20,037 bases of DNA, taken from IMG/VR virus record IMGVR_UViG_3300023179_000636, positions 1 to 20,037 of that record. The stretch is one strand, 5' to 3'. Position numbers and translations under genes: made by a program. The notes below the pieces were generated by a model. It searched no databases. It saw only the letters and a list, made by a program, of their open reading frames with translations, and was not told the DNA's origin. Source of the DNA: a virus. Within the stretch, counting starts at the first letter, position 1, and each line of letters opens with the position of its first letter. Shown here piece after piece: positions 2,206 to 17,074 of this stretch.

Positions 2206-3474
2206 ATGCCAAAGCCGCCGGCCCGACCACGCTCGCCCCGCCGGGCACCGGCGAAGCCGCGCAAGGCGGCCGAAGAGCGTTTCATCTCCGTGCTGGGCAC
2301 GCTCCTCGAGCCGTCGCCCTACGGCCGGTTGTCGGCGGCCGACGTGACGCCGGAAGTCGCCGTGCGTGTTTCGGCGATCTTCGCGGTGTGCCGGTTCATC
2401 GCCCAGGGCGTCGGCGTCATGCCGATCCAGATCGGCCGCACGCTGGCGAATGGACGGAAGGAGCGTTTCTCGCCGCCCTGCTCGTACACGATTCGCCAGC
2501 GTCCGAACGGCTGGCAGTCGCGATTCGATTTCATGACGCTCCAAGCTTATTGGACCGCGCTTCATGGGAACGGGTTCGCTCGCATCATGCCGGGCTCGCG
2601 TGGGTTCATGAGCACGCTTGTGCCAATGCACCCCACGCGCGTGAGCGTCCAGCAGCTCAGCGACTACACGATCTCCTACAAGTTCCTCGAGGCGAGCGGC
2701 ACGTGGTCGCCGCTGCGGCAGGACGAGGTGCTCCACTGGAAGTGGATGAGCGAGAACGGCATCTGGGGCATGGCTCCAAGCGAGATCTGCGCCACCTCGA
2801 TCTCACTGGCCCGTCAGTTGGACATCGCGGCCACTGCGTTTTGGAAGAACGGAGCGCGGCCCGACTTCCTCATCAAGACGGCCGAGAAAATCTCGGACCC
2901 GGCAATCGCGGAACTACGCGAGCAGTTCCGGCAGATGTACGGCGGAAACAACCGCGGTGCTCCTGGCGTCGTGTCGAGCAAGGTCGACATCGTGCCCATG
3001 CAGTCGAACACGATGGAACAGAGCCAGTACCAGGAACTGCGGGCCGCGATCCTGCCCGACGTGTGCCGGCACTGGGGCGTTCCTTCGACGCTGCTCGGTG
3101 ACGCCAAGATGGCGAGGTACTCAAACGTCGAGCAGGAGCATCTGTCGGCGCAGGTGTGGTGCTTGCTTCCGTGGCAGCACCGGATGGAAGGGCCTTTCGA
3201 CATGGCACTCCAGCCCGTCTACGGCGAAGACGTATACGTAAAGCTCGACAGTCGCGGGCTCCTGCGTGGCGACAACGCGAGCCGGGCCGCCCTGTATCAG
3301 TCGATGTTCAACATGGGCAGCATCACGCCCAACGAAATCCGCGACCTGGAAGACTTCGATCTGATCAGCGAGCCAGCCGCGGATCAGACGTTTATGCAGT
3401 TGGGTTTCTCGACGCTGAACGCGGCGGCGTCGCAGGCCGCAGCGCCGGCCGCAAGCAATGGAGGGAACGCATGA
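2206..3474 (+). CDS. phage portal protein, HK97 family
   Basis: The 422-residue product is the dodecameric portal at the unique prohead vertex, through which DNA enters and to which the tail attaches. The HK97-type pattern is clear: VSAIFAVCRFIAQGVGVMPIQI-like helix/strand at about 55-76, the DEVLHWKWMS segment near 173-182, the long helix ISLARQLDIAATAFWKNGARPDFLI around 199-223, and GVPSTLLGD at 291-299. The C-terminus is a low-complexity Ala tail. The ATG at 2206 has no strong SD; the 58-base leader can fold (GGGGCG at 2164-2169 against CGCCCC at 2197-2202). The stop overlaps the next ATG as ATGA at 3471-3474. Confidence 0.95.
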   Translation: MPKPPARPRSPRRAPAKPRKAAEERFISVLGTLLEPSPYGRLSAADVTPEVAVRVSAIFAVCRFIAQGVGVMPIQIGRTLANGRKERFSPPCSYTIRQRPNGWQSRFDFMTLQAYWTALHGNGFARIMPGSRGFMSTLVPMHPTRVSVQQLSDYTISYKFLEASGTWSPLRQDEVLHWKWMSENGIWGMAPSEICATSISLARQLDIAATAFWKNGARPDFLIKTAEKISDPAIAELREQFRQMYGGNNRGAPGVVSSKVDIVPMQSNTMEQSQYQELRAAILPDVCRHWGVPSTLLGDAKMARYSNVEQEHLSAQVWCLLPWQHRMEGPFDMALQPVYGEDVYVKLDSRGLLRGDNASRAALYQSMFNMGSITPNEIRDLEDFDLISEPAADQTFMQLGFSTLNAAASQAAAPAASNGGNA

Positions 3475-4460
3475 GCACCGTCGAAACGCGATATCTGTCG
3501 CAGGCAGAAGATGCGGACGTTGCATTGCACGTTGAGACGCGAGACGACGGCCGCCCAGTGATCGTGGGTATGGCCCCGCCGTGGAATAAGTGGTCGGTCG
3601 ACCTTGGCGGATTCAAGGAGCGTTTCATGCCGGGGGCGTTCCGGAAGTACCTGGACCGCTCGCCGAACGACCCGCGCGGCAAGGCCGACGTTGTTGCCAA
3701 GTACAACCACCAAGACTCCGCGGTGCTCGGCCGCACGACGAATGGCACGCTCGACATCCAAGAGACCGAAAAGGGGCTCGTATTTCGTGCCACGCCGCCG
3801 GTCGGAACTCCGACGACGGCGGAGGTCGTGCCGCTGATTCGCGACCGATACATCTACGGCTCGTCGTTCGCGTTTTCGCTCGTGGACGCCAAGGGCGAAC
3901 AGTGGGACGAAGACCCGGCCGGCAACGTCACGCGGACGATCACCGAGGCCGCGATCTATGACGTGTCGCCGGTGACGCACGCCGCCTACCCGAACAGCAC
4001 CGTGGGCCTTCGATCCCTGTCCGCATGGCGTGAAGCCCGCGGGCTCGTCCAGCACAGGGCCGAGGGCCGCGGGCTGCTGATCTCGCTGGACTATGACCAG
4101 ACCTTCACGGCCGCCCCCGGGCTGTGGCGATCCTTCGTCGCCATGGCAACCGCCGACGGCAATCAAGTCGTGTGCATCTCGCGGCGTGACGACACAGAGT
4201 CGAACCGCGAAGAAATCCGGTCGGCGTTCGCCGATCTCGACGTGTCGCAAGTCGTGCTGTGCGGACCCGAAACGCGAAAGCGAGCGGCAGCCGCTGCGGC
4301 CGGTCTCGACATCGACATTTGGATCGACGACTACCCGGAAGGAATCACAGACCAGGAGTTCCTCGCTCCGAAGTCTCGCGGCGTGACGTTCTCGACGCTG
4401 GCCGGTGCTCGAGCCGCTGCCGCCGCAGCGTCTGCACGTATGCGAATCGTCACCGGCTAG
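3471..4460 (+). CDS. prohead protease fused to a HAD-like phosphatase domain
   Basis: The 329-residue protein has two recognisable parts. Residues 1 to about 185 match the HK97 prohead protease family (S78), which matures the capsid: candidate catalytic His80 in KYNHQD, Ser132 in YGSSFAF, and the late motif DVSPVTHAAYPNS around 164-176. Residues about 200-329 read as a HAD-superfamily domain: motif I LDYDQT (D207, D209, T211), motif II Ser237 in CISR, a basic residue near K270 for motif III, and motif IV IWIDD (D286-D287). HAD proteins of this type are known as separate phage proteins; the fusion is the odd point. The start at 3471 forms an ATGA overlap with the portal stop. The stop (TAG, 4458-4460) is embedded in the next gene's SD. 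Confidence 0.87.
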   Translation: MSTVETRYLSQAEDADVALHVETRDDGRPVIVGMAPPWNKWSVDLGGFKERFMPGAFRKYLDRSPNDPRGKADVVAKYNHQDSAVLGRTTNGTLDIQETEKGLVFRATPPVGTPTTAEVVPLIRDRYIYGSSFAFSLVDAKGEQWDEDPAGNVTRTITEAAIYDVSPVTHAAYPNSTVGLRSLSAWREARGLVQHRAEGRGLLISLDYDQTFTAAPGLWRSFVAMATADGNQVVCISRRDDTESNREEIRSAFADLDVSQVVLCGPETRKRAAAAAAGLDIDIWIDDYPEGITDQEFLAPKSRGVTFSTLAGARAAAAAASARMRIVTG

Positions 4461-4469
4461 GAGGTCGCC

Positions 4470-4865
4470 ATGGTCAGCGTGCCGGTGCCAGCCGTCGTCG
4501 CCGCGAAGCAGGCCGCTTCGGACGCATCCGATGGGCTCGTCAACAAGGTGGCCGCGTTCATCGAGGCCGCGTCGCTCGCTGCCGCGGACGGGCTCACGTG
4601 GTCCGAGTTCGGCGAGCTCATGCTCTCGCTCTTGCGTCTGGTCATGACGAGCCTCGACATGGTGGCGAGCCTGACGGGGCCGCAGAAAAAGGCGCTCGCC
4701 GTGGACGCCGTGGCACGCCTGTTCGACGCCGTCGCTGACCAGGCGGTGCCGGCCGCTGTCTACCCGCTCTGGCTGATCGTGCGTTCGCCGGTGCGGGCAC
4801 TGGTCGTGGCGATCGCGTCCGGTGCCATCGAGCAACTGTTGCCGCTGGTGAGGGCCGCAGCATGA
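4470..4865 (+). CDS. hypothetical helical, probably membrane-associated protein
   Basis: The 131-residue product is not firmly recognised. It is Ala/Leu/Val-rich and predicted helical. A hydrophobic stretch near residues 95-117 could span or lie on a membrane. The GPQKK segment at 70-74 followed by amphipathic helices recalls small phage holin-like proteins, but this is an impression only. It has one of the best ribosome sites in the window (AGGAGGT at 4459-4465, 4 bases before the ATG), overlapping the protease stop. Its stop overlaps the next start (ATGA, 4862-4865). It opens the five-gene cassette between protease and capsid, and its neighbours suggest an envelope-related role. Confidence 0.8.
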   Translation: MVSVPVPAVVAAKQAASDASDGLVNKVAAFIEAASLAAADGLTWSEFGELMLSLLRLVMTSLDMVASLTGPQKKALAVDAVARLFDAVADQAVPAAVYPLWLIVRSPVRALVVAIASGAIEQLLPLVRAAA

Positions 4866-5428
4866 CGTGGCTGAGCGTGGCACTTGTGGTCGCCGCCGCG
4901 TATGCGATGGCTGGGCCGCAGATTCTCAAAAAGCTCAAAGAGGCCGCCGGCGTGGTCGACCTTCCGCACCTGGACCGACGGCACCTTGCCGGTGCTGCCT
5001 TGCTCTTGGCTGCCGCCCTCGTCTGGCGGTCTGGTGGATCGACCGAGCCGACGCCAGCCCCCGCCCCCGCTCCAGACGCGGCGATCGTGCTCCGTGGTGC
5101 GTTCGTCGGACCCGAGGCCGCGGTCGACGCCGCGACCGTGGCAGCGATGTTCGACGAGCTCGCGGCCGAAGTCGAGTGGGACGCCATGCAGGCCGAGCCG
5201 CTGATCCGTACCGGCGTCGCATTCGACGACCTCCGGGTCCGTGCGTTCGACCTACGGCTCCGTGGCGTGTCGCTTGGCGAGCGATACCCGCGAGCACGTG
5301 CCACGATCAAGGACTACCTGGACCGCACGGCAGGAACGTCTGGCGGGCCGCTGACGCCAGCCCAGCGGTCGGCGTGGGTGTCCGCATACCGCGAGGTCGC
5401 GAGGGCAGCAGCCGATGCCACGCGCTAG
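4862..5428 (+). CDS. hypothetical two-TM protein with Pro-rich linker and soluble domain
   Basis: The 188-residue product is not recognised. Seen: hydrophobic segments at about 2-17 and 42-56 (AGAALLLAAALVW), a Pro/Ala linker (TPAPAPAPDA, 64-73), then a 110-residue soluble, mostly helical domain ending in a basic helix. This layout (membrane hairpin, flexible linker, soluble domain) suits a protein that presents a domain from the inner membrane, as spanins and lysis accessory proteins do; that role is inferred from architecture and neighbours only. The start is an ATGA overlap with the upstream stop, and the 3' end overlaps the peptidase gene by 14 bases. Confidence 0.8.
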   Translation: MTWLSVALVVAAAYAMAGPQILKKLKEAAGVVDLPHLDRRHLAGAALLLAAALVWRSGGSTEPTPAPAPAPDAAIVLRGAFVGPEAAVDAATVAAMFDELAAEVEWDAMQAEPLIRTGVAFDDLRVRAFDLRLRGVSLGERYPRARATIKDYLDRTAGTSGGPLTPAQRSAWVSAYREVARAAADATR

Positions 5429-6497
5429 CCTCGCACGCTGGGGCGTGTTCCTGCTGCTTCTCGGATTGGCGGCAGCCGCCGTCGTCCACGGCATCTACGG
5501 CGACCGTGTGCCGGCGGGCCAGTACGGCTACACGCCAGACCCAGACGGCGTCCAGCGGTTCCTCTCCGAGCTCGAGCAACCGTTGTTCCGCGACGCCGGC
5601 GCGGAGACAATCCGCGAGGCAAAGGGCGTCGACACGTTCCTTTACCGGGCAGCAAACAAAGCCCACGTCGCCCTCTACGGGAAGCCGTGGGTCGTCGAAC
5701 GGCAGGGCATCGGTGACTGTGTCTCGTGGGGCTGGGCTCACGGCGTATACGTCGCCCAGTGCGTCGACTGGGAAACGGGCCGGCTTGCGAACCCGCCGCC
5801 GTTCCCATGCACGGAAGCCGTGTACGGCGGGAGCCGCGTCGAGGCCCGCGGCCGAAACGGCGACGGTTCGTCACCAGTTGGCGGATGGTCCGATGGATCG
5901 TACGGCGCTGCCGCCGCCCGATGGGTGCGTGACTGGGGCGTGGTCTACCGCGAGCAGGTTGGCGGGCACGATCTGCTCACATATTCGCCAGACCGCGCGA
6001 AACAATGGGGAGCGTACGGCAACGGCGGCAAGGGGGACGGCGGAAAGCTTGACACGATCGCGAAGAAGCATCCGGCACAGAACGTCGCGATGGTCAAGAC
6101 GTTCGCAGAGGCGGCCGCCGCGATCGAGGCCGGGTTCCCGGTTGCGGTCTGCTCGATGCAGGGTTTCGCGAGCGTGCGAGACCAGCACGGCTACGCAGCC
6201 GCCAGCGGTAGCTGGGCACACTGCATGTGCTTTGTCGCGGTGCGGTACGCCAAGAACGGTTCGCCAGACGACGCGCTGCTCTGTCTCAACTCATGGGGGC
6301 CTCGATGGATCAGCGGTCCAAGGTGGCCCGACGATATGCCGGAGGGCTCATTCTGGGTTCGTCGCACGATCGTTGAGCGGATGCTTGGCTCGCAGCCGGA
6401 CTCTTACGCCGTCGGCTCGGTCGCCGGGTTCGGCTGGCGTGATCTCGACAATGGCGGATTCTTGGCTCCATCACTGCCCGACAAGGTGATTCCATGA
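5415..6497 (+). CDS. membrane-anchored papain-like (C1-type) cysteine peptidase
   Basis: The 360-residue product has papain-type active-site order: Gln97 and Cys102 in QGIGDCVSWGWAHG, His269 in GSWAHCMCF, and Asn292 in CLNSWG, followed by a GSFWV closing strand typical of the fold. Residues about 10-26 form one hydrophobic Ala/Gly-rich segment with no obvious signal-peptidase site, so the enzyme is probably membrane-anchored or signal-anchored, with the catalytic domain outside the cytoplasm. Several extra cysteines (116, 132, 246, 270, 272, 290) could form disulfides. Such a peptidase is not a standard head gene; with four small membrane proteins around it, a lysis or envelope-degrading role is plausible. 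A virion-borne entry protease is the main alternative. Confidence 0.87.
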   Translation: MPRASLARWGVFLLLLGLAAAAVVHGIYGDRVPAGQYGYTPDPDGVQRFLSELEQPLFRDAGAETIREAKGVDTFLYRAANKAHVALYGKPWVVERQGIGDCVSWGWAHGVYVAQCVDWETGRLANPPPFPCTEAVYGGSRVEARGRNGDGSSPVGGWSDGSYGAAAARWVRDWGVVYREQVGGHDLLTYSPDRAKQWGAYGNGGKGDGGKLDTIAKKHPAQNVAMVKTFAEAAAAIEAGFPVAVCSMQGFASVRDQHGYAAASGSWAHCMCFVAVRYAKNGSPDDALLCLNSWGPRWISGPRWPDDMPEGSFWVRRTIVERMLGSQPDSYAVGSVAGFGWRDLDNGGFLAPSLPDKVIP

Positions 6498-6745
6498 CCG
6501 TTGACCGATCGACCGCGTTTGCAGTGATCTTCGCCTTTGCTCTCGGTGTATGGGTTGCCACGCCGACGACGCCGCAGCCTCCCGACCGGCCGGTGCTGTC
6601 GTGGATCGCACGTGCCGCAAAGACGTTGCTCTGGGTGGCCGCGTTCGCAGAGCAACCGCCAGAGCATCGCCACGACGCACGCATCGTGCAGCACGCGATT
6701 GGCGATGACGGCTACCCGATCGTCGATCACGGTAGGGGGCTCTGA
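6494..6745 (+). CDS. small two-TM hypothetical protein (holin candidate)
   Basis: The 83-residue product is unrecognised by sequence. It has two hydrophobic segments, about 8-23 (AFAVIFAFALGVWVAT) and 37-52 (WIARAAKTLLWVAAFA), separated by a short Pro-rich turn, then a polar His/Asp-rich tail. Two membrane helices in a very small protein directly downstream of a peptidase is the architecture of class II holins, so it is my first candidate for the pore former of this cassette; only topology and context support this. Translation is coupled on both sides: ATGA overlap at 6494 with the peptidase and TGATG overlap at 6743-6747 with the next gene. Confidence 0.75.
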   Translation: MTVDRSTAFAVIFAFALGVWVATPTTPQPPDRPVLSWIARAAKTLLWVAAFAEQPPEHRHDARIVQHAIGDDGYPIVDHGRGL

Positions 6746-7035
6746 TGGCACTGTGGCGCTGGCTGGTGTCGCTTCTGGTCTGGCTGTCAAGCGACTCCGC
6801 GACGATCGACCGCGAGGTTCCTCGAGCCGCCGCCGCGGTGTCGGCCGCACGTGCGTCAATGATCGTGGACGCGACGCCAAATCCGGCACCGTCGCCGCAG
6901 GCGTGCGACTGCGGCCAGACCTGCGTGGCCGGCAAATGGAAGCCAGACGGTCGCGTCGTGCAGGACTGCCGTTGCCAGTGCAATCGGTGCGTCGCGGAAC
7001 GCAAAAAGCAACCCGTCACTTCAGCGGGTCGGTGA
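6745..7035 (+). CDS. small N-anchored Cys-cluster protein
   Basis: The 96-residue product is unrecognised. Residues 4-15 (WRWLVSLLVWLS) are a short hydrophobic anchor. A helical stretch and Pro-rich linker follow, then seven cysteines in two clusters: CDCGQTC at 54-60 and CRCQCNRC at 75-82, with a basic tail. The clusters could bind zinc or form disulfides. It is the last gene of the cassette before the capsid gene and starts by TGATG coupling. A spanin-like envelope function or a metal-binding membrane adaptor are both possible; neither can be settled from sequence alone. Confidence 0.75.
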   Translation: MALWRWLVSLLVWLSSDSATIDREVPRAAAAVSAARASMIVDATPNPAPSPQACDCGQTCVAGKWKPDGRVVQDCRCQCNRCVAERKKQPVTSAGR

Positions 7036-7088: not shown

Positions 7089-8312
7089 ATGCCCAGCCCC
7101 AAGCTCGCCCAGCTTCAGGATGAAGCCGCCACGCTCACCAAGACCATCGCCGACCTTCGTGCCGTCGAGCCGAAGGACGACGCCGACGCGGCGAGCATCG
7201 CCGACCGTCTGGCTGCCGCCGAGAAGCGTGCCGACGAGGTGGCTGGTGCCGCCCAGCGTGAGCGTGATCTCGACGCTCGCCTCGCCGCCCTCCAGGCGGT
7301 GAGCGCTGCCAGCGAGCCGCGGTCGGTGGTCGAGCGTGCCAGCGACGACGACGCGTCGCAGCCGGTCGACATCAGGTCGGGCGTGCGGGCGTTCTCTTCG
7401 CCCAAGGCCGCTGCCGCTGTCGGCGGGTACCTCAAGCAGCTCTACACCGGCGAAATCCGGGCGATGGGCGAGACGAGCTCCACGTACGACCTGCTCGGTG
7501 CCGAGTACGTCGTGAAGGAACTGTACGGAGCGATCGTCAACCGCCTCCAGTACGCCTCGGTTGCGTTGCAACTCGCGACGGTTGTGCGGCCGACCGGTCA
7601 GAAGATCAGCTTCCCGAAGGTCGGCGACGCGACCGCGTCGTTCGTGGCCGAGGGCACGGCGACGACCGACCAGGACATCGCGACCAGCGCCAGCGACCTG
7701 ACTTTGTACGAGATGCGTGCATCGGTCGCGGTGTCGCGAAGCCTCATCGAGGATTCGCCGATCGACGTGGCCGGGCTCGTGGCCGAGCGTTTCGCGCTCT
7801 CCTACGCGACCAAGTTCGACAACGTGTGGCTTGGCGGCAACAACGCAAACCCGGCGATCACCGGGCTCGCGGCGGCGGTCGCCAACGGCAACACCATCAC
7901 GGTTGCGGCCAACGCCGCGACCACCGTGGCGAACCTGGCCGACGTGGTCGGCAAGGTTGACGAGACGATCATGGGATCGGCAGCGTGGGTCGTGAGCAAG
8001 GCCGGCTGGGTAGACCTGATGAAGTTGTGGTCTGCCCAGCAGACGACGCTCACCGTCGGCGGCGGGCGGATCGTGCCGAGTATCTTCGGTGCCCCGGTCT
8101 ACATCGTGAAGGGTCTGCCGGCGACCACGCTGGCTCTGTACGGCGACTTCGCGATGGCAACCGCGGTGGGCGTCAAGGCGAACGGGCTCGAGATCGAAGC
8201 CGGCCGCGAAATCCTCATGCGGAACCGGCAGGTGCTCTACGTCGCGAACACCCGGTTCGGCGTCGTGAACCACGCCCCCGAGTTCGTCGGTCGTCTCGCC
8301 AAGGCGTCCTGA
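7089..8312 (+). CDS. major capsid protein, HK97 family
   Basis: The 407-residue product is the main shell protein. Residues 1 to about 90 are a charged coiled coil (KLAQLQDEAATLTKTIADLRA onward) corresponding to the delta/scaffold domain that the prohead protease removes. Residues about 130-407 have the HK97-fold pattern: ELYGAIVNRLQYASVALQLATV, the E-loop-like region with FPKVGDATASFVAEG, SVAVSRSLIEDSPIDVAGLVAERFA, the GAPVYIVKGLPA segment and a C-terminal strand. The ATG at 7089 is chosen over an in-frame TTG at 7059 because AGGAGGG sits correctly before it. It is unusual that five genes separate it from its protease. A perfect hairpin follows the stop. Confidence 0.95.
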   Translation: MPSPKLAQLQDEAATLTKTIADLRAVEPKDDADAASIADRLAAAEKRADEVAGAAQRERDLDARLAALQAVSAASEPRSVVERASDDDASQPVDIRSGVRAFSSPKAAAAVGGYLKQLYTGEIRAMGETSSTYDLLGAEYVVKELYGAIVNRLQYASVALQLATVVRPTGQKISFPKVGDATASFVAEGTATTDQDIATSASDLTLYEMRASVAVSRSLIEDSPIDVAGLVAERFALSYATKFDNVWLGGNNANPAITGLAAAVANGNTITVAANAATTVANLADVVGKVDETIMGSAAWVVSKAGWVDLMKLWSAQQTTLTVGGGRIVPSIFGAPVYIVKGLPATTLALYGDFAMATAVGVKANGLEIEAGREILMRNRQVLYVANTRFGVVNHAPEFVGRLAKAS

Positions 8313-10864: not shown

Positions 10865-11248
10865 ATGCCCGGCTTTGACTCGTCGCACGGCGTGTCGGTT
10901 TCGTTCGCCGGCGTGGCGATCGGCTACCTCACCGGGTTTGACGACGAGACCTCTGCCGGCTCGCTGGTGGAGTACACCGGATCGTCTGCAAGCATCCTCG
11001 GATCTGGCTCGAGCTCTCGTCTATTGCGTCGGTATGACTGCACGTCGATTGAACCCATGAAACTGTCGCTGACGTTCCACGGCGCTCCGAGCTACACGCA
11101 GAACGACGTGGGCGCAAAAGGCACGCTCTCGTTTTCCGCGCCGAATAACTCATGGTCTGCCCAGGCCATCCTGACCGGCTGGAATCATTCGGGGCGAGCG
11201 GGTCGGTTCTCGGAGGGAAGTGCCACGTTTCAACTGACGGGGGGATGA
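10865..11248 (+). CDS. tail tube (major tail) protein-like, copy 2
   Basis: The 127-residue beta-rich protein begins DSSHGVSVSFAGVAIGYLTGFDDETS and ends FSEGSATFQLTG, a pattern typical of small siphophage tail-tube proteins. It is a diverged relative of the preceding protein by shared ends, similar length and adjacency. One of the two is presumably the tube subunit and the other a second tube or decoration component; I cannot say which. The ATG at 10865 follows GGGAG at 10852-10856. The stop overlaps the next start (ATGATG, 11245-11250). Confidence 0.75.
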   Translation: MPGFDSSHGVSVSFAGVAIGYLTGFDDETSAGSLVEYTGSSASILGSGSSSRLLRRYDCTSIEPMKLSLTFHGAPSYTQNDVGAKGTLSFSAPNNSWSAQAILTGWNHSGRAGRFSEGSATFQLTGG

Positions 11249-11607
11249 TGCCTGCCATCTTGAATTTTGAAGAGCTTCTGGCTGCGGCACCGCGTCAAAA
11301 GCCGATCGCGTACCACTGCAAGGCGTTCGGCCGCGAGGTGCTGCTGCGCGACCCGACATCGTCGGACATCGACGAATGGCGGATGTACTGCCAGAGGAAC
11401 ATCGGCAACAGCGTGCCATTCGCGGCAAAGCTGCTTCAGATTCTGCTCTGCGACGAGCAAGGCGAGCGGATCGTGCCGCAGGATGACGAAGCGCTGGCGG
11501 CAATCGGCGAAATGGACGCCGCGGGAGTAACCGAGATCAGCGAGTTCGCAGCTGGTCTGATGAAGTCGCCGACCGACGAGGACATCGAGGAAATCCAAAA
11601 AAACTGA
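11245..11607 (+). CDS. tail assembly chaperone, gpG-like
   Basis: The 120-residue product sits directly before the tape measure region, has an acidic C-terminus (SPTDEDIEEIQKN) and resembles tail assembly chaperones (gpG analogues) that wrap the tape measure protein during tail assembly. Seen: FGREVLLRDPTSSDIDEWRMYCQ, then FAAKLLQILLCDEQGERIV, a beta-then-helix pattern usual for the family. Its last sense codons CAA AAA AAC form a perfect slippery heptamer immediately before TGA, so a fraction of ribosomes should continue into the gpT-like frame. ATG 11248 is an alternative start. Confidence 0.85.
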   Translation: MMPAILNFEELLAAAPRQKPIAYHCKAFGREVLLRDPTSSDIDEWRMYCQRNIGNSVPFAAKLLQILLCDEQGERIVPQDDEALAAIGEMDAAGVTEISEFAAGLMKSPTDEDIEEIQKN

Positions 11608-11644
11608 GGAGCCAGCCGTGGGAGTTGTTCGCCTACCGGCTGGC
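11598..11644 (+). promoter_or_regulatory. programmed -1 ribosomal frameshift signal
   Basis: A AAA AAC at 11598-11604 is in the correct phase of the gpG frame (CAA AAA AAC TGA). A spacer of 6 bases (11605-11610, TGAGGA) follows, then a perfect 8-bp stem: GCCAGCCG (11611-11618) pairs with CGGCTGGC (11637-11644) around an 18-base loop. Heptamer, spacer length and downstream stem all match known -1 frameshift cassettes. Slippage moves ribosomes into the frame that encodes the gpT-like extension. Confidence 0.85.
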
Positions 11645-12011
11645 ACTCGCGATGCACTGTCCAGACGTGGAGGCTTTGAAACAACGAATCACGTTCGCAC
11701 AACTGAAACGGTGGTTTGCGTTCTACCAGCTCGAGCCGTGGGGCCAGCCGTGGTTGATGGCAGGGCGGATGACGAGCCTCATACGTGCCGCGCTGGGCGT
11801 CAGGTATGACCGACACGACGAAGAACGATTTCTGATCACGTACCGCAGCGGCGACGAATACAGATCACACGTAGCACAGACTCCTGAGCAGATCGAAGCG
11901 AAGCTAGCAAGCCTCCCGGGGCTAAAAAAGCAACAGGTGCCCGCATGGCGACGATCGGCAAAGTCTCGGCAGTCTTCACGGCATCCACGTCGGGGCTCAC
12001 GTCGGGCGTGA
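11604..12011 (+). CDS. gpT-like extension of the tail chaperone, made by -1 frameshift
   Basis: This frame continues gpG after slippage, starting with codon CTG at 11604, and adds 135 residues, giving a gpGT fusion of about 255 residues. The sequence right after the slip, LRSQPWELFAYRLALAMH, then CPDVEALKQRITFAQLKRW and AFYQLEPWGQPW, is the typical gpT pattern (a helix repeat ending in Glu-Pro-Trp-Gly). The frame has no good start of its own: only TTG at 11625, without SD. The 3' end overlaps the tape measure gene by 67 bases and contains a second slippery heptamer, A AAA AAG at 11924-11930. Confidence 0.83.
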   Translation: MRSQPWELFAYRLALAMHCPDVEALKQRITFAQLKRWFAFYQLEPWGQPWLMAGRMTSLIRAALGVRYDRHDEERFLITYRSGDEYRSHVAQTPEQIEAKLASLPGLKKQQVPAWRRSAKSRQSSRHPRRGSRRA

Positions 12012-16069: not shown

Positions 16070-17074
16070 ATGGCCCCGGCCGATGTGCTCACCGACATGG
16101 CACGCGAGCTCTGCCGCAGGTGGCCGGACGCCCCAGCCCGGACGCTTGCACGCCGGCTAGCCAAGGCCAGCAACGGCGCTCTGACGATCGACCAGGCACG
16201 CGCCCGCATCGCGCGGCAGTTTGGACTGTGGGGGAAACAAGCCCGGAAGAAAATAAAGTCGGCTGCACCGCGACAACCTCGCGCCGCCGGCCAGGTGTAC
16301 GAGATGCCGGCAAGCATCGCCGAGCCGTGGACGCCGCACCGCATGGACTTGGTCGGCACGGTCGGCATTCTCTCCGACGTTCACGTGCCGTATCACTCCG
16401 AGCTCGCCGTGTCGGCTGCGGTGAACTACCTGCGACAGCAGGAGCTCGCAGGTCTGGTGCTCAACGGCGACGTGTGCGACTTCTACGCGATATCGCGTTA
16501 CCTAAAAGACCCGACGCAACGCGACTTCAAGGGCGAGCTCGAGGCGGTGCGGCAGTTCCTTGGGTGGATTCGGCAGCAGTTCCCGACCATCCCCATCGTC
16601 CTAAAAGCCGGGAACCACGAGGAGCGCTGGAAGCATTGGCTTTGGCAGCACGCCCCCGAGATTGCCGACGAGCCAGTGATGAGCCTTACCGGCTGGCTGC
16701 GGCTTGGCGAACACGACATCACGCTCGTCGAGGATCAGCGGCCGATCATGGTCGGGAAGCTGCCCGTTTTCCACGGCCACGAGCTTCCGCGTGGGTTCGC
16801 CGCGCCGGTCAACGCCGCACGCGGGCTATGGCTGCGGCTCAAGTCTTCCGGCCTTGCCGGCCACCATCATCGAACCAGCAACCATACCGAGGCAGACTGG
16901 AAGCGACGCGAAACGGCAGCGTGGTCAACTGGATGCCTGTGCGACCTGACGCCGGAATACTCGCGAGTCAACGGCTGGAACTGGGGATTCGCGACAGTAA
17001 CCGTTCACGCCGGCGGCGACTTTGACGTTGAAAATCTTCGCATCACTTCCGACGGCACGGTGAGGACCGCATGA
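16070..17074 (+). CDS. calcineurin-like metallophosphoesterase
   Basis: The 334-residue product has the full metallophosphoesterase motif set: SDVH (D103, H105), GDVCD (D134, D137), GNHEE (N182, H183), HGHE (H235-H237) and GHHH (264-267). These residues bind two metal ions and hydrolyse phosphomono- or diesters. The substrate is unknown: nucleic acid ends, cyclic nucleotides and phosphoproteins are all possible. Residues 1 to about 85 form a basic helical extension (ARRLAKASNGALTIDQARARIARQFG) that looks like a helix-turn-helix or helical DNA-contact module. ATG 16070 is preferred over TTG 16064 because GGAGG (16059-16063) sits 6 bases upstream. Confidence 0.88.
   Translation: MAPADVLTDMARELCRRWPDAPARTLARRLAKASNGALTIDQARARIARQFGLWGKQARKKIKSAAPRQPRAAGQVYEMPASIAEPWTPHRMDLVGTVGILSDVHVPYHSELAVSAAVNYLRQQELAGLVLNGDVCDFYAISRYLKDPTQRDFKGELEAVRQFLGWIRQQFPTIPIVLKAGNHEERWKHWLWQHAPEIADEPVMSLTGWLRLGEHDITLVEDQRPIMVGKLPVFHGHELPRGFAAPVNAARGLWLRLKSSGLAGHHHRTSNHTEADWKRRETAAWSTGCLCDLTPEYSRVNGWNWGFATVTVHAGGDFDVENLRITSDGTVRTA

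Follow-up and report, generated by a model that had tools for sequence, protein, structure and literature searches.

The block and its genomic setting

The window analysed here is an entire IMG/VR record of 20,037 bases, probably a fragment, from a tailed phage of the HK97 type that carries an integrase. The genes identified in it encode the terminase, the portal, the S78 prohead protease, the capsid, connectors, tail-assembly proteins, the tape measure and the integrase. Five genes, here termed A to E, lie between the prohead protease and the capsid genes:

3471..4460, + strand: S78 prohead protease (Pfam E 2e-29), left neighbour; context, outside the module
4470..4865, + strand: gene A, 131 aa; candidate holin-like protein, constant in both types of cassette
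4862..5428, + strand: gene B, 188 aa; two predicted membrane helices at the N terminus, then a Pro-rich linker and a helical outer domain
5415..6497, + strand: gene C, 360 aa; predicted membrane-anchored papain-fold cysteine peptidase (Q97, C102, H269, N292)
6494..6745, + strand: gene D, 83 aa; small, with a hydrophobic segment at its N terminus
6745..7035, + strand: gene E, 96 aa; Cys-cluster protein
7089..8312, + strand: HK97-type major capsid protein (Pfam E 8e-27), right neighbour; context, outside the module

Successive genes of the block overlap along the same strand by 4, 14, 4 and 1 bases, and all five were also found by an independent codon-usage caller. Their dN/dS values against two near relatives are 0.06-0.16 (0.09-0.16 against L003) and resemble those of the capsid and prohead protease genes, indicating that A to E are real genes under purifying selection. 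These observations bear out the original prediction of five coupled genes at this position. In single-sequence searches none of the five gave a significant match to Pfam or PHROG.

Two further features were noted in the flanking genes. The prohead protease (3471-4460) carries a C-terminal extra domain (residues ~200-311) that corresponds to phrog_4919/phrog_4256, of unknown function, and contains a HAD-like 'DYDQT' motif. The tail assembly chaperone gene (11245-12011) is followed by a second frame, making a programmed frameshift likely.

Features of the individual proteins

Of 46 homologues of the A protein, 85% have two hydrophobic segments. The second segment of A contains conserved Arg, and Pfam and PHROG searches returned no match to a holin family. 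In B two predicted N-terminal helices are followed by a Pro linker and a helical outer domain, as had been proposed when it was described as a two-TM protein with a soluble domain, and no fold match for it was obtained in the PDB.

The C protein has an N-terminal hydrophobic segment in 98% of 55 homologues, and this anchor shows a Gly/Ala/Ser/Thr fraction of 39% and a mean hydropathy of 2.4. Q97 (the oxyanion Gln), C102, H269 and N292 are invariant across 22 divergent sequences, and a Foldseek comparison (3ois, E 4e-8, probability 1.00) matched the AlphaFold model (mean pLDDT 75) to xylellain and cathepsin B, with the NSWG motif as a further point of resemblance to the C1A proteases. On the strength of this model C is a papain-fold peptidase with intact catalytic residues and predicted activity, and its earlier reading as an anchored papain-like peptidase stands. 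The papain relationship is seen by fold comparison only: no Pfam family matched C at E <= 1, and neither phmmer nor profile searches against PDB sequences gave anything significant.

The remaining two proteins depart in part from what had been proposed. D shows one clear hydrophobic segment in place of the two TM segments assigned to it. E does contain the expected Cys cluster, but its supposed anchor is weak, the hydrophobic segment passing the threshold in just 24% of homologues. The Blastopirellula elements described below have a secreted, thioredoxin-like protein in place of E (Thioredoxin_7, E 5e-7), and in contig L145 a single protein combines a Cys cluster with a thioredoxin-like CxxC stretch, as judged by eye and with no Pfam match. 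The same contig has a lipobox-like E'; inspection by eye revealed no lipobox in A to E of the window, and no spanin-like lipoprotein was seen in the window block. The N-terminal hydrophobic segments of B, C and D suggest that the soluble parts of these proteins probably face the periplasm.

The block as a position-free module

A scan with C recovered 119 relatives, and among the best 80 of these, which were analysed, the order A-B-C-D-E is nearly always kept, so that the block is indeed conserved in related phages. Among viral loci fetched by either C or A, the C-type enzyme lies between the prohead protease and the capsid gene in 67 contigs and away from both in 28, frequently behind the tail genes, with another 35 contigs cut at one side. 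Four phages whose head genes are of another kind (G008, G015, G016 and G019) carry the block after the tail genes, near the end of the late operon, and in the Blastopirellula element the cassette is directly upstream of the terminase. The lysis genes of lambda also sit upstream of the terminase. Judged by gene order the block is a module rather than a group of head genes, and the phages that carry it apart from head genes make a structural head role unlikely, in keeping with the view that none of A to E is a capsid part.

Two exchangeable protease sets behind gene A

A scan with gene A recovered at least 306 relatives, of which 80 contigs were sampled. Many of these have A in the same slot with a different gene set replacing B to E. 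This alternative cassette (L170:5429-8524; similar in L177, L187, L223 and L224) comprises proteins of 83 aa, 79 aa, 125 aa, 289 aa and 263 aa and two small proteins with hydrophobic segments. The 263-aa protein is secreted and combines a Cys cluster with a trypsin-like domain (Trypsin_2, E 8e-19) in which the His-Asp-Ser triad is intact. The 289-aa protein, a putative Cys enzyme for which the searches gave no database relative, contains a Cys/His motif (Q76-x5-C82, H234) that is merely suggestive of a papain-like enzyme; profile comparison gave no tie to papain, and no match to it was found among 50,697 cultured-phage records.

The papain set was present in 50 of the 80 contigs drawn by A and the trypsin set in 19, both sets together in none, the other 11 ending before the slot. 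As the first sample had been chosen by C, a selection artefact was considered; it is removed, for near relatives, by a second sample of 80 contigs drawn by the portal. In that sample, which consists of near relatives of the window phage's portal and was scored with alternative-set models built from loci of the present analysis, all 29 contigs extending as far as the capsid gene contain A and exactly one set (22 papain, 7 trypsin). The slot is thus obligatory and its content exchangeable among near relatives of the window portal. The swapping of unrelated proteases behind one membrane protein leads us to argue, from these sequences, that proteolysis is the likely function of the slot.

A GTA-like element and chromosomal cousins

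A phage-like element of ~29 kb with terminase, portal, capsid and tail genes and the cassette is present in 4/4 Blastopirellula species (L105:6027-20942 and L157:5741-20000 in B. marina; L140/L159, L141 and L143/L161 in the others). It occupies the same locus, with conserved host genes flanking the cassette side, and both sides in B. marina and G029. At synonymous sites it has diverged much as the flanks have, most dN/dS values are 0.05-0.3, and an integrase was not found in it. By these comparisons the element is GTA-like and vertically inherited under purifying selection. The retention of the cassette in an integrase-less element of this kind makes it more likely that it serves the production, release or delivery of particles. 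Immediately upstream of the Blastopirellula cassette lie genes for an ABC-ATPase/GNAT fusion (L105:6724-7800) and for a small protein whose domain resembles the C-terminal one of RNA polymerase alpha (L105:7894-8268).

In the tree of the C family a well-supported branch (97/94) parts the enzymes of phages and elements from a group of chromosomal enzymes. Those of the latter that were examined lie in triads that encode a secreted B-like protein, C and a secreted E-like protein (L149, L150, L152, L154, L155 and L156), and the chromosomal B-like protein is related to phage B (hhalign E 1.3e-8). Gene A was not detected near these triads, and there were no phage families among those listed nearby. 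The presence of such triads without phage genes in Planctomycetia implies that the proteases also have some non-phage role. By analogy with endolysins and host autolysins, to whose relation that between the phage enzymes and the chromosomal triads is similar, this suggests that a host envelope-protease system may have been taken over by phages, or the reverse.

Hosts and the search for a conventional endolysin

The hosts that could be traced are all Planctomycetota, namely the four Blastopirellula genomes and other Planctomycetia; relatives are present in Blastopirellula marina DSM 3645 and in planctomycete MAGs. A homologue of C at E <= 1e-10 is found in 88 of 398 Planctomycetia genomes, some of which have four each, and no match to C was found among the 50,697 cultured-phage records. 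Contig L103 is almost the same as the window phage (99% in C) and has been assigned to an alphaproteobacterial MAG, probably through mistaken binning. The host assignment agrees with the earlier guess of a host with a protein-rich envelope, as most peptidoglycan-synthesis genes are non-essential in Planctopirus limnophila (PMC10632474). Planctomycetes nevertheless possess peptidoglycan, and their cells are disrupted by lysozyme (PMC4432640).

No peptidoglycan hydrolase was found by Pfam or PHROG in the window, a 20-kb fragment, which agrees with the original prediction. A conventional endolysin elsewhere in such phages would speak against a protease in that role, and it was looked for in larger relatives and by translated search. 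When ~196 unassigned proteins of eight larger relatives were compared with all of Pfam, there was no peptidoglycan hydrolase among the matches listed, and the same was true of the Blastopirellula element; the further Pfam families (four in the eight-contig scan and two in the Blastopirellula scan) were single-member matches weaker than ~2e-4. When 33 contigs, including six that carry the trypsin set, were searched in six frames, the results were negative for phage lysozyme, Amidase_2, SLT, M15 and NlpC/P60, and control genomes gave positives. These searches cover known families in contigs that are all fragments, and their outcome is absence of evidence across most of the late region rather than proof.

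Functional inference

Taken together, these observations lead us to regard it as fairly probable that the block is an egress module, most likely for lysis, of a large planctomycete phage group, in which proteases would replace the endolysin. The proposal of a protease-based lysis system thereby gains from the negative endolysin searches, the location of the module apart from head genes, the host envelope and the exchangeable protease; lysis itself and holin action by A, together with the timing and the substrate, are what we infer. In the proposed sequence of events, A would open or depolarise the inner membrane late in infection, in the role of a holin, and C, tethered to the membrane together with B and D, would cut envelope proteins. 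E might act on disulphides, either in the envelope or in the protease. Phages of the alternative type may do the same job with their trypsin-like serine protease, which is secreted, and a second enzyme of the putative Cys type. Several points count against this interpretation: A matches no holin family and has a conserved Arg within its second hydrophobic segment, the window block has no visible spanin-like lipoprotein, and the chromosomal B-C-E triads exist without phage genes. A planctomycete phage has also been reported to leave its host without lysis (PMC10945688), and the lysozyme sensitivity of planctomycete peptidoglycan (PMC4432640) means that a muralytic enzyme would work in these hosts, which counts against lysis by a protease.

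Other functions can be considered for the same set of proteins. They could form an entry module, carried in or on the particle or acting in the recipient, with the protease opening the protein envelope during DNA delivery. An unusual envelope must be crossed on entry too, most contigs have the genes among those of the head and the GTA-like element likewise needs delivery, but the hydrophobic N-terminal segments of A to D and the secretion signals of the alternative set fit export better than packaging, and in other phages the block is apart from both head and tail genes, so that we regard an entry role as unlikely. It is rather improbable that the proteins remodel the envelope in such a way that particles leave a living cell. 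This would need the same proteins and has its precedent in the chronic release described for one planctomycete phage (PMC10945688); however, that phage is outside the sequence comparison made here, most tailed phages lyse, and a holin-like A with paired protease sets better fits an abrupt event. A similarly low probability attaches to C being a papain-fold peptidoglycan endolysin of the NlpC/P60 or CHAP kind, in which case the cassette would serve lysis in the ordinary way, with an enzyme from a new family. This would suit the lysozyme sensitivity noted above (PMC4432640), and CHAP and Amidase_5 endolysins have a papain-like topology (PMC8586454); yet C resembles C1A proteases such as cathepsin B and xylellain, down to the NSWG motif, the enzyme that stands in for it functionally is a serine protease of the trypsin-like family, which cuts proteins, and the 33 contigs contained no NlpC/P60 match.

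The GTA-like element, the 28 contigs with the enzyme elsewhere and the slot filled in 29/29 contigs speak against two further readings, which were rejected. Superinfection exclusion, which the original prediction listed as an alternative, or lysogenic conversion, brought about by a protease and membrane proteins, is often the business of small membrane proteins of temperate phages, and the window phage has an integrase. Such a moron would hardly be expected to fill its slot in all of these 29 contigs, to lie coupled within the late operon without spacing of its own or to be kept under selection in a GTA-like element, which has little use for superinfection exclusion, and we consider it very improbable. 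That the genes aid capsid maturation beside the prohead protease, as their place between it and the capsid gene in most contigs might suggest, is scarcely credible in view of their occurrence elsewhere and in phages with other head genes, their membrane anchors and the secreted protease of the alternative set.

Returning to protease-based lysis, the chances appear evenly balanced that there is a class of such systems in which general proteases of papain-like or trypsin-like type, secreted or anchored in the membrane and exchangeable behind one holin-like protein, replace the endolysin, the class being matched to hosts with largely dispensable peptidoglycan-synthesis genes and domesticated in the GTA-like element of Blastopirellula.

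Relationship to known systems

The A-E cassette is similar to holin-endolysin(-spanin) cassettes in being a compact, coupled and position-free block of the late operon that combines a small hydrophobic protein with an enzyme and further envelope proteins. It differs in its protease in place of a peptidoglycan hydrolase, in the lack of a recognised spanin pair and in an A protein that belongs to no holin family. The C enzyme has an N-terminal hydrophobic segment, a putative signal-anchor comparable to that of SAR endolysins such as P1 Lyz and HP1 Lys, whereas its catalytic domain is a predicted papain-fold protease and not a muramidase. With peptidase family C1A (papain, cathepsin B, xylellain) it shares the fold, the catalytic Cys, His and Asn and the oxyanion Gln, and it is distinguished by the lack of a Pfam match at E <= 1, an identity of ~14%, its presence in phages, its anchor and its partners. 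To our knowledge, the lysis enzymes of tailed phages attack peptidoglycan, and a lysis system built on proteases, if confirmed, would be a new solution to phage lysis.

Parallels outside the tailed phages of bacteria include PeiW and PeiP of methanogen viruses, which are also viral peptidases that act as lysins on a non-murein wall (PMC12596118, PMC4456609); the wall concerned is pseudomurein, and the comparison with them is one of description. A review of archaeal virus egress has proposed a holin combined with an S-layer protease and knew of no such enzyme (PMC4456609). The mechanism is the same as that proposed here for A to E, with the difference that candidate genes are now at hand, in bacterial phages. 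We found no description of such a cassette in the literature on planctomycete phage lysis, of which few subscription journals were covered.

Whether the planctomycete cell is held together by protein or by peptidoglycan has long been disputed. Since the layer that bears the load is what lytic phages attack, a protease-based lysis module would bear on this question. Having two protease sets that can replace each other allows the idea to be tested cleanly by genetics, and in the Blastopirellula element the cassette is available at a fixed locus in a host that can be cultivated.

A metallophosphoesterase gene, at 16070-17074 in the window, is encountered again near the cassette in five phages that do not have the window's head genes (L067, L217, L225, L229 and L230).
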